64,000 nucleotides of DNA from Sphingomonas alba (GTDB taxonomy: Bacteria > Pseudomonadota > Alphaproteobacteria > Sphingomonadales > Sphingomonadaceae), in NCBI RefSeq assembly GCF_023516555.1, contig NZ_JAMGBD010000001.1, positions 310,001 through 374,000 on the forward strand. The letters are read 5' to 3'. Within the stretch, counting starts at the first letter, position 1. Each line of letters opens with the position of its first letter. A model generated the notes under the pieces. The model saw nothing but the letters and a program-made list of their open reading frames with translations, ran no database searches and was not told the DNA's origin. Both the position numbers and the translations under genes were made by a program. This document shows positions 41,253 through 43,423 of the stretch, one piece after another.

Positions 41253-42314
41253 TCAGCCCTCCTCCACCGCATAATCGTCGCCGTAGAATTTCGAGGTACT
41301 GCGTGTGTGGAAGGTTATGGCTTTGATCGGCTCGTAATGCGCCTCGCCAAGGCCAGGCAGGACCTCAAGCACCTCATCCTCCCAGACGTAGACAGCCATC
41401 GGGAAGGACACGCGCGCTTGGTCACGGTGGGATCCGTCGGCCGGCTTGCCGACCCGATGCGTCGTCGACGGCAGCAGGTCGTTACTGATCAGCTGCATGT
41501 AATCGCCGGTATTGATGATGATCGAGCCGTAGGGCGCATGCATCCTCACCCATTTACCGCTGCGATGATTCCAGACCTGGAGGCCCTCCACCCGCGTTGA
41601 CGGCAAGATCGTGAACAGGTCCACGTCCTCATGACCCAGCAACCGCCCCGCGCCCGACCGATCCTGCTCAGCAGTCAGCGGCGGATAATAGTTCAGCCGA
41701 AGGCCGAAATTGGTCTTCGTCAGCCTTCGATCGAATAAGTGCGGGTCCGCGCCCAATCCCATGAGCATCGCCTGGGCAATTGGCTTGAACAGCGGCTCAT
41801 GGGCCTCGACCAACTGGCGGAACAAGGGTTCAAAGGCCGCGTCCGGCCAATAGTTCTCCGCATGCGTCGGCTCGCCACCTCGCTGAGGGATATCAAATGC
41901 GCGGCGGCACCAGACCCATCCCTCCACCAAATCGGGATGGATCTCGCTTGTCTCCTCCAGCGGGAAATAGCCTTGACTGACTGATCCGTGCCGCGCCGCG
42001 CGAAATCGCATTTTCGTTTCAAGTGGCGTCGAAGTGAACAAGTCGAGCACACCCTCGTGCATCGCATCGTAAAGCGCAGGATCGACCCCATGTCCGGTTA
42101 GAACCGCGAACCCGATCTCCTTGAGCGCACGAACGAACTCCTCGGCAAACTGCGCCCTGTCGTCCGCATTCCCGCCCAGGAACCGCGAAAAATCGAGGAC
42201 GGCAATCTCATAGTCCTCGTCGAACTCGTCACTTTCGCTCTCGGCTAACCGATAGGTGTGCGACTTGCGGACCTGGTCGTACTTCACGAAGTCCTTGTTC
42301 AACGCATCGCTCAT
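41253..42314 (-). CDS. Isopenicillin-N-synthase-like 2OG-Fe(II) oxygenase
   Basis: 353 residues. The iron site is H228 and D230 in GHEDVDLFTILPS, with H286 in STTHRVGK; R/S after it (RVSFPMAVYVW) suits co-substrate binding. An N-terminal DIOX_N-like half (about 35-150) precedes the catalytic domain. The substrate is not identified. It overlaps the TauE/SafE gene by 4 bp (42311-42314), so the two are co-expressed. Confidence 0.88.
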   Translation of the reverse strand: MSDALNKDFVKYDQVRKSHTYRLAESESDEFDEDYEIAVLDFSRFLGGNADDRAQFAEEFVRALKEIGFAVLTGHGVDPALYDAMHEGVLDLFTSTPLETKMRFRAARHGSVSQGYFPLEETSEIHPDLVEGWVWCRRAFDIPQRGGEPTHAENYWPDAAFEPLFRQLVEAHEPLFKPIAQAMLMGLGADPHLFDRRLTKTNFGLRLNYYPPLTAEQDRSGAGRLLGHEDVDLFTILPSTRVEGLQVWNHRSGKWVRMHAPYGSIIINTGDYMQLISNDLLPSTTHRVGKPADGSHRDQARVSFPMAVYVWEDEVLEVLPGLGEAHYEPIKAITFHTRSTSKFYGDDYAVEEG

Positions 42315-43210
42315 AACGCTGCCGCCTGCGCAGTCGTGGCTTCCAGCCGGTGTTCGCGATGTCCCTTGACCGCAGCGCGCGCCATCACAACAGCTGTATA
42401 GAACACGACCACCGTGATCACCCAGCGCAGGACGTCAACGTCCATCTCCTTGACGATCAGCGCCGCGACCAGCACCGCCGGGATACCTCCCAGCGCCAGT
42501 CCGACGACAATCCTGAGGTCGATTTCCGGCACCTTCACGAACCGAACGCTCGAACCGGCGCCCATCAGCGATGCGCCCGACGCCATGATCGGGAAACAAT
42601 AGTGCGGGTCCATGCCCATCAGGCTCAGCATCGCCAGCGTTGGGGCGTAATTGCCGACCCCGAAATTGGCGAGCAGCCCAAAGCCGAAGCTTGCCACGAT
42701 AGCGACGATCGTAAGCCCCATCGGCAGGCCTGATGCCGTACCGCCCGCAGGAAGACTGCCGAGAATTGCTAGGAGGTTGGCGATGCCTGCCATCGCCAGG
42801 CCGATGGCGACCGTCATCTGCACGATCCAGGCGCGGGCACGAACAACCAGCGGCGCACCGACGATGCCGCCCACGAACGTCGCCATCGCGCCACCGAATA
42901 ATAGGACGGGGTCGACGCGCACGCCGAGGAGGATCAGGAAAATAATGCTCTCGACCATCGCCGGCGGCGTTAGGCCCGCGATCATGGTCGGCGGAATCAG
43001 CCGGTCGGGGACCAGTTTGCGGAATTTGAACCAGGCGGTCGTCTGGGCGAACGAGCCGATCCCGAACGTATCGAAAAAATTGACCACCGCGCCGAGGGCG
43101 AGCGCTTCGGGGGTTGGCCAGGCGCGGCGTCCGATCGCCTCTCGTGCCAGCACGTACGCATAGACGAGGATTGCGAGGCCGAGCGGAATGAGGAGCGCTA
43201 TCAGCAGCAT
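42311..43210 (-). CDS. TauE/SafE (TSUP) family membrane transporter
   Basis: 299 residues, about eight membrane segments in two related halves (for example GGAMATFVGGIVGAPLVVR and GIPAVLVAALIVKEMD). TSUP proteins move sulfite, sulfoacetate or similar anions; the substrate here is not shown by sequence. It starts at 43210, has a short untranslated region and sits behind a terminator and a candidate Trp-rich leader peptide. It overlaps the 2OG-Fe oxygenase gene by 4 bp. Confidence 0.88.
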   Translation of the reverse strand: MLLIALLIPLGLAILVYAYVLAREAIGRRAWPTPEALALGAVVNFFDTFGIGSFAQTTAWFKFRKLVPDRLIPPTMIAGLTPPAMVESIIFLILLGVRVDPVLLFGGAMATFVGGIVGAPLVVRARAWIVQMTVAIGLAMAGIANLLAILGSLPAGGTASGLPMGLTIVAIVASFGFGLLANFGVGNYAPTLAMLSLMGMDPHYCFPIMASGASLMGAGSSVRFVKVPEIDLRIVVGLALGGIPAVLVAALIVKEMDVDVLRWVITVVVFYTAVVMARAAVKGHREHRLEATTAQAAAL

Positions 43211-43241
43211 TTCAAAGTCACTTTACGCATGAATTTCACCC

Positions 43242-43271
43242 AAAAACAGAAAAGCCCGCCGGGCGGCGGGC
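43242..43271 (-). terminator. Intrinsic terminator in the 5' leader of the TSUP gene
   Basis: On the minus strand GCCCGCC (43271-43265), a GCCC loop and GGCGGGC (43260-43254) form a perfect 7-bp stem followed by TTTTCTGTTTTTG (43253-43241). The orientation is leftward. No minus-strand gene ends just upstream of it, since the next 2.7 kb holds plus-strand genes, so it sits in the leader of the TSUP gene 31 bp before its start. Confidence 0.75.
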
Positions 43272-43300
43272 GGGCAGTCGATGATCGATTGAAAGGCCGA

Positions 43301-43387
43301 TCAGTCGCGCCATCGCTCCGCATGCATACGACCGCGCCACCAGGTGCCGGTGGTCATTGCGTCAGCAGGGGCGCTCGGGTGGTTCAT
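43301..43387 (-). CDS. Candidate leader peptide with tandem Trp codons
   Basis: 28 codons from the ATG at 43387, or 18 from an in-frame ATG at 43357 (start MTTGTWWRGRMH). Tandem TGG codons lie at 43342-43337, and a third Trp three codons from the end; the peptide stops 30 bp before the terminator stem. No Shine-Dalgarno is seen, but a candidate promoter would place transcription start at the ATG, giving a leaderless reading frame like that described for rhizobial trpL. Inferred; could be fortuitous. Confidence 0.45.
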   Translation of the reverse strand: MNHPSAPADAMTTGTWWRGRMHAERWRD

Positions 43388-43393
43388 TGCGCC

Positions 43394-43423
43394 AGACTAG
43401 GTGCTGCTATCGAACCAGGTCAA
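43394..43423 (-). promoter_or_regulatory. Candidate promoter of the leader transcript
   Basis: Minus-strand TTGACC (43423-43418) and TAGTCT (43399-43394) are 18 bp apart. The -35 is good, the -10 matches TATAAT at three of six positions. The expected start would fall at or next to the ATG at 43387. Confidence 0.35.

Follow-up and report, generated by a model that had tools for sequence, protein, structure and literature searches.

On computational evidence, the minus-strand leader ahead of a TauE/SafE-type (TSUP) transporter gene of Sphingomonas alba is very probably a ribosome-mediated tryptophan (Trp) transcription attenuator of the kind that heads trpDCBA, here heading an operon for the transporter and a 2OG-Fe(II) oxygenase. 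A sequence-only reading of the window, the whole stretch of 64,000 nucleotides that was analysed, had proposed an attenuator of the trp type at this place, and the proposal was supported by homology to trpD leaders, by the conservation of its parts, by alternative pairings of the RNA and by linkage to trp genes in relatives. What is new, as far as literature searches go, is the target and the function implied for the two genes; the mechanism is known.

Layout of the leader locus

The leader lies on the minus strand in the divergent gap between a DUF3089 gene (PF11288, plus strand) and the TSUP gene. The features of the locus are as follows, in coordinates of the window.

43394-43423, minus strand: candidate promoter, TTGACC (43423-43418), an 18-nt spacer and TAGTCT (43399-43394); read directly
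43301-43387, minus strand: leader ORF of 28 codons from ATG 43387, MNHPSAPADAMTTGTWWRGRMHAERWRD*; from translation and alignment of homologues
43337-43342, minus strand: tandem Trp codons TGGTGG, the putative stall site; identical in 4/4 intact pre-TSUP leaders
43312-43310, minus strand: third Trp codon (TGG) of the leader ORF; read directly
43297-43321, minus strand: region 2, predicted 5' strand of the antiterminator; from folding
43266-43288, minus strand: region 3, predicted 3' strand of the antiterminator, holding 6/7 bases of the terminator 5' arm; from folding
43241-43275, minus strand: predicted intrinsic terminator, a 7-bp GC stem (43275-43254) and a T-rich tract (43253-43241, TTTTCTGTTTTTG); from a scan and folding
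43201-43230, minus strand: minicistron MRKVTLKCC* after GGGTGA, its stop overlapping the TSUP start; same in 4/4 intact leader-TSUP loci
42311-43210, minus strand: TSUP (TauE/SafE, PF01925) transporter gene, ATG 43210; from a Pfam match
41253-42314, minus strand: 2OG-Fe(II) oxygenase gene (DIOX_N and 2OG-FeII_Oxy), overlapping the TSUP stop by 4 nt; from domain matches

The candidate promoter, the 28-codon ORF with tandem TGG and a third Trp codon, and the 7-bp GC stem with a T-run before the TSUP gene had all been claimed beforehand and were found as described, with the terminator placed between the leader ORF and the first gene and with a T-tract that is interrupted in the window. The transcription start is probably located at the leader ATG or a few nucleotides from it, as judged from the position of the promoter motif. 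The nearest apparent minus-strand gene upstream of the leader is at 47295-45964, beyond three plus-strand genes (DUF3089, RuvX and, recognised by eye, a carbamoyltransferase-like ORF), and the earlier statement that no minus-strand gene feeds the terminator therefore stands for the window.

Generic scans did not single out the locus. The terminator scan gave 3 terminator-like sites per 4 kb against 3.4 expected, the generic promoter scan gave no match at the leader promoter, and the minimum free energy of the whole leader had a z of -1.5 in the window. At the gathering level, Rfam returned only five tRNAs in the window, and the Trp_leader model (RF00513) aligned over its full length (1-100) to 43348-43246 with 16.1 bits, below its gathering score of 41. 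It is the homology described below that lifts the leader of the window above chance.

Homologous leaders in the genus

With the 183-nt leader as query and a threshold of E <= 1e-9, 24 places were located in 20 of the 71 genus genomes, the one in the window being counted, with matches in the other genomes reaching E = 3e-26. Twenty of these leaders directly precede trpD, and four (those of the window, G243, G233 and G229) precede a TSUP orthologue. All 24 contain an ORF of 27-29 codons ending in A(A/E)RW(R/H)D*, followed by the same terminator block, and in 23 of them, all but that of G243, TTGAC lies 36-40 nt upstream of the start codon, which lends weight to the promoter read in the window. 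Alignment across sphingomonads had been set beforehand as a test of the attenuator, and it shows the leader to be conserved, with 24 aligned copies, four of them before orthologous TSUP genes.

The tandem Trp codons are kept in 4/4 intact pre-TSUP leaders and in 19/20 trpD leaders, and are missing from a decayed copy in G206 and from the trpD leader of G233. The antiterminator is invariant in the 24 copies and shows no covariation. When the leader of the window was compared with the other three intact TSUP leaders, conservation was 100% for the tandem Trp codons, 92-100% for region 2 and 82-85% for region 3 and the terminator, as against 42-53% for the leader N-terminus (the codons before Trp), 36-57% for the spacer and 22-56% for the loop. 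This pattern fits selection on an attenuator. In the exceptional trpD leader of G233 (L048), the tandem Trp is replaced (LWCGEF) and the pairing arms are intact; the TSUP leader of the same genome retains tandem Trp.

The genome of the window also has separate trpDCBA genes with a leader of their own, MANAFASLTNFTARGWWWRSHSFGAARWRGW*, which belongs to another subtype (ending AARWRGW, compared with AERWRD for the TSUP leader), so that the TSUP leader is the second leader of this genome. Trp auxotrophy of this genome was considered, as no trpE was found in it by PF04715, and was rejected because that model performs weakly in the genus (it finds just 20/71 genomes, and weakly) and because the trpDCBA genes are present with their own leader. 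In G236 (C97, L075), a genome with a contamination of 7% that may be a mixed bin, another leader precedes another trpD, which differs from the first.

A covariance model of one subtype, run with stricter filters, had matches in 6/397 genomes at E <= 1e-4. With RF00513, under stricter filters, 0/99 family genomes reached the cut-off of 41 bits; its weak matches across the family, mostly unsorted, were excluded from the leader counts. At least two of the 99, G000 and G077, do carry leaders before trp genes, suggesting that the current Rfam Trp_leader model misses the sphingomonad class of trp leader. The similar trp leader of G077 (L186, 9064-8931, minus strand) heads DAHP synthase-trpE-trpG-trpD-trpC-trpB-trpA, which places the Trp branch and the initial step of the shikimate pathway under one leader there.

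The position of the leader in the gap before the DUF3089 gene, on the opposite strand, would also accord with a terminator or an antisense RNA of that divergent gene and a Trp-rich ORF that arose by chance. A terminator that served only such an antisense RNA had been named as a refuter of the attenuator. Homologous leaders, however, precede trpD and head trp operons, and in relatives the leader-TSUP-oxygenase cassette is found beside different upstream genes, which refutes DUF3089 antisense as the sole explanation and leaves this reading very improbable. Read-in is possible in G229 and G233, whose leaders are preceded on their own strand by an ORF that stops 47 and 44 nt upstream, respectively.

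Folding of the terminator and the antiterminator

Because of GCCC repeats, the 5' arm of the terminator can take two registers, 43275-43269 or 43271-43265, against a 3' arm at 43260-43254; RNAfold prefers 43271-43265. The antiterminator that the sequence-only reading had offered, a weak pairing of 43338-43329 with 43280-43269, was wrong and was dropped in favour of the longer and stronger pairing of region 2 (43321-43297) with region 3 (43288-43266) obtained by RNA folding. In the window, this pairing has an energy of -25.9 kcal/mol compared with a shuffle mean of -19.0, with 12 of 500 shuffles as low. The same energy control covered 17 of the 34 leaders that were folded and gave z from -0.9 to -4.3. 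Pairing of the terminator arm by itself is not rare in shuffles (89/500 for the window, 38 to 302/500 over the 17 leaders).

A perfect terminator stem of 6-9 bp is present in 34 of the 35 leaders examined; the thirty-fifth, the decayed G206 copy, was left out of the folding set for want of one. With region 1 masked and region 4 absent, the predicted antiterminator captures the terminator 5' arm, with at least 4 arm bases paired in 34/34 leaders. Once the 3' arm is present, a terminator stem of at least 6 pairs forms in 31/34 leaders, and one of only 3 pairs in L052. At least 5 terminator pairs are found in 27/34 leaders when the full leader is folded, and at least 5 remain in 27/34 with a ribosome placed at the stop codon. 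At equilibrium, with all of the terminator in place, the antiterminator prevails in only 2/34 leaders (the window and L062); when region 2 is shuffled, it wins in 3.6% of folds on average and in 3.5% for the window. The model therefore needs co-transcriptional kinetics, that is, the order of synthesis, by which trp attenuators generally likewise work.

The antiterminator of the 24 close leaders is 98.5% paired and nearly invariant, with no two-sided pair changes. After the addition of 10 more distant leaders, 97.5% of pair cells are standard over the 34 and 7/16 pairs have changed on both sides, against 3.0 in shuffles and 0 or 1 in slid controls, in an alignment that was fitted to the model and that covers the terminator and the stem-loop within the antiterminator, the outer antiterminator helix lying outside it. 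Aligning the two leader subtypes by sequence alone gave too poor a result for pairs to be counted, and this alignment was left out.

Linkage of the transporter-oxygenase pair to the trp operon

TSUP matches were obtained in 21 of the 71 genus genomes, amounting to 28 genes with two halves in G229 counted as one, and the orthologues of G243, G233 and G229 are 85, 71 and 66% identical to the TSUP of the window. The oxygenase gene stands right behind TSUP in 7/28 genes; in one of the remaining 21 (G243, C1) the contig stops short of the following gene, and a piece of a second oxygenase is found at the end of another G243 contig. A covariance model built from the 24 leaders (R1) was searched in the 28 TSUP loci with flanks up to 1.5 kb. 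Leaders were found in five loci (four intact and one decayed), all among the seven with an oxygenase, and in 0/21 of the others; four of these five belong to the leaders from which the model was built and so are bound to match, and the fifth (G206) does not. In the sixth pair, that of G245, both genes directly follow trpA in a single run, leader-trpD-trpC-trpB-trpA-TSUP-oxygenase, with the leader ~4.5 kb upstream of TSUP and with trpC as a trpC-trpF fusion. No leader was found at the seventh pair (G219).

Remnants of trp genes were observed at two further copies. The leader of G206 no longer has the tandem Trp or the last Trp and is mismatched in its terminator arm, and TSUP is preceded by a trpA remnant that contains an in-frame stop; elsewhere this genome holds a complete set of trpDCBA genes headed by a leader of their own. 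Contig JAIVHR010000167.1, outside the 28, carries a leader (25.5 bits), a broken trpD whose middle is missing and whose frame is changed, TSUP and the oxygenase gene. Three more TSUP-oxygenase pairs outside the 28, in MAGs (L194, L210, L213), gave no leader. In G229 (L074, L108), the matches to trpD and trpA are fragmented over different frames and a second TSUP is split, by sequencing errors or by real decay. The sequence-only reading had called the target unexpected for not being a trp gene; the target is indeed a TSUP transporter with an oxygenase, yet the pair follows trpA in G245 and a trpA remnant in G206.

The simplest reading of these arrangements is that the transporter and the oxygenase are the former tail of a trp operon and would have kept the leader through the loss of trp genes. 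In the trpB tree, the genome of the window groups with G245 and G206 (support 100/99), and in the TSUP tree the window groups with G243 and G245 (100/100), its TSUP leader being of the G243 subtype; the oxygenase tree gives no resolved placement. Both the trees of trpB and TSUP and the subtype of the leader suggest that the cassette may have passed from one clade to another. In the wider family, TSUP homologues were found in 10/199 genomes, and the eight outside the genus had no tandem-Trp ORF in the 350 nt upstream; this absence was at one stage taken as counter-evidence and was overturned by the genus-level searches.

An operon tail of this origin could also have retained the leader as a mere convenient promoter after the trp deletion, with a response to Trp that is fading or brings no benefit. 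Such a relic would account for the decayed leader and the trpA remnant of G206, for the broken trpD of JAIVHR010000167.1 and for the pairs without a leader (G219, L194, L210 and L213). We consider it improbable for the window, which together with three relatives keeps the Trp codons, the pairing arms and the terminator while the rest drifts; moreover, a terminator that did not regulate would burden the operon.

Minicistron between the terminator and the transporter gene

After the terminator, all four intact loci have AGGTGA (GGGTGA in the window) and then an ATG whose frame ends across the TSUP start. This ATG lies 20 nt before the TSUP ATG in three loci and 50 nt before it in G229, at the position that the trpD start takes after trp leaders. 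The two Cys codons of MRKVTLKCC* result from its overlap with the TSUP start (MLL), and a reading of the minicistron as poly-Cys was therefore dropped for translational coupling. Translation of the minicistron is probably coupled to that of TSUP, to judge from this overlap.

The transporter and the oxygenase

The TSUP protein matches Pfam TauE (PF01925) just above the cut-off (36.4 against 32.6 bits), and the best stretch comprises residues 168-287 of 299 only. Members of the TSUP family are known for sulfur compounds. In the oxygenase, H228, D230, H286, R301 and S303 are invariant in 13 sequences and are putative metal and 2OG ligands; we take H228/D230/H286 to be the HxD...H iron motif and R301/S303 the RxS 2OG-binding motif. 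Its best solved relative is the ethylene/succinate-forming enzyme 9ovh (E = 4e-29). The enzyme shares DIOX_N and 2OG-FeII_Oxy with oxygenases of the ethylene-forming-enzyme and isopenicillin-N-synthase types, but differs from them as a conserved subfamily of several phyla that has no NCBIfam match and is often adjacent to a transporter. In the window, gatC and then gatA- and gatB-like ORFs (recognised by eye; 41253-37976, minus strand) closely follow the oxygenase gene, and read-through of the attenuator might reach these Glu-tRNA amidotransferase genes.

A scan of the collection confirmed 156 relatives of the oxygenase, of which the best 80, from several phyla, were kept (L187-L266). A transporter of the sought types lies within 3 kb of the oxygenase gene in 53 of these best 80 loci: a sodium:neurotransmitter symporter in 24, TSUP in 8, an amino acid permease in 8 (mostly on the other strand), an NhaC-like protein in 7, DUF969 with DUF979 in 5, and a symporter plus a permease in 1. 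None of these types was found in 27 loci, some of which are at contig ends. As the types were chosen from the same 80 loci, the tally describes them and tests nothing. Leaders were detected by the leader model in 5 of the best 80 loci, each of which has TSUP. Within 3 kb, 17 of the best 80 loci contain cupin genes, which are of two kinds. In five loci (L189, L191, L195, L197 and L203), the oxygenase gene stands behind DUF969 and DUF979, separated from them by a DUF2891-like ORF (recognised by eye); no Trp leader was found there.

The TSUP-oxygenase pair may serve when translation slows or when aromatic amino acids run short in general, rather than in the supply of Trp itself, with Trp-tRNA as a mere gauge; this fits oxygenase homologues that adjoin unrelated transporters (NSS, APC, NhaC-like and DUF969/979), and leaders confined to 5 of the best 80 loci, all with TSUP, imply that the chemistry of the oxygenase is not generally tied to Trp control. 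Against it, G245 has both genes directly behind trpA under a trp leader, and two other copies (JAIVHR010000167.1 and G206) still hold trp gene remnants. We regard such a role in general shortage as rather unlikely, though worth keeping in mind.

Proposed mechanism and relation to known systems

In the Trp attenuator that we favour, RNA polymerase would start at the ATG or next to it, and a ribosome would translate the leaderless ORF behind the polymerase. With charged tRNA-Trp scarce, the ribosome would stall on the tandem Trp codons, and region 2 would pair with region 3 before the 3' arm of the terminator is transcribed, resulting in read-through. With ample Trp, the ribosome would reach the stop codon inside region 2, and the terminator would form and leave a short RNA ending near 43241. 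On read-through RNA, the short coupled cistron would probably pass ribosomes to the TSUP start. For the TSUP leader, we infer the start site, the response to Trp, the kinetic order and the coupling.

The closest relatives of the leader are the trpDCBA leaders of the same genus, which have the same promoter, ORF, region 2, region 3 and terminator as the TSUP leader and differ in that they precede trpD. Like the enteric trp leader (RF00513), that of the window has a Trp-rich ORF and alternative antiterminator and terminator; it differs in its low score (16.1 against 41 bits), in a target that is a transporter and an oxygenase, and in a start that is probably leaderless. The rhizobial trpL/rnTrpL of Sinorhizobium meliloti (PMC7298713), also alphaproteobacterial, likewise involves attenuation, a leaderless leader ORF (probable in the window) and a short attenuator RNA (predicted in the window), whereas its target is trpE(G), before which the leaderless trpL lies, and its peptide has 14 aa. 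Target operons of amino-acid attenuators are described as highly conserved and mostly biosynthetic (PMC3766115), and uORF attenuator-like motifs have been described before cysS and aroF (PMC8632094). The literature searched gave no case of TauE or TSUP linked to a trp attenuator or to a trp operon, nor a trp attenuator of sphingomonads. A comparative study of proteobacterial attenuators was reportedly made by Vitreschak in 2004, and sphingomonad trp leaders may already be in print.

The physiological sense of the arrangement might be the import of Trp, or of a precursor that the oxygenase processes, a view that we hold tentatively and at less than even chance. Import is favoured over export because transporters of amino-acid types occur near the oxygenase homologues and because induction would be expected on Trp shortage. 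More speculatively, and still doubtful, the TSUP protein and the oxygenase could form a Trp-supply module, a permease for Trp or an aromatic precursor with a converting oxygenase, once the tail of a trp operon and now a leader-TSUP-oxygenase cassette that travels among sphingomonads.

Taken together, these data tie two proteins of obscure role to Trp supply through a regulatory link at the sequence level, and the series of genomes presents an amino-acid attenuator that was apparently handed from biosynthesis genes to a transporter-oxygenase pair. The cultured strains Sphingomonas sediminicola KACC 15039 and Sphingomonas sp. URHD0057 have the leader, TSUP and the oxygenase, which makes the prediction readily testable.
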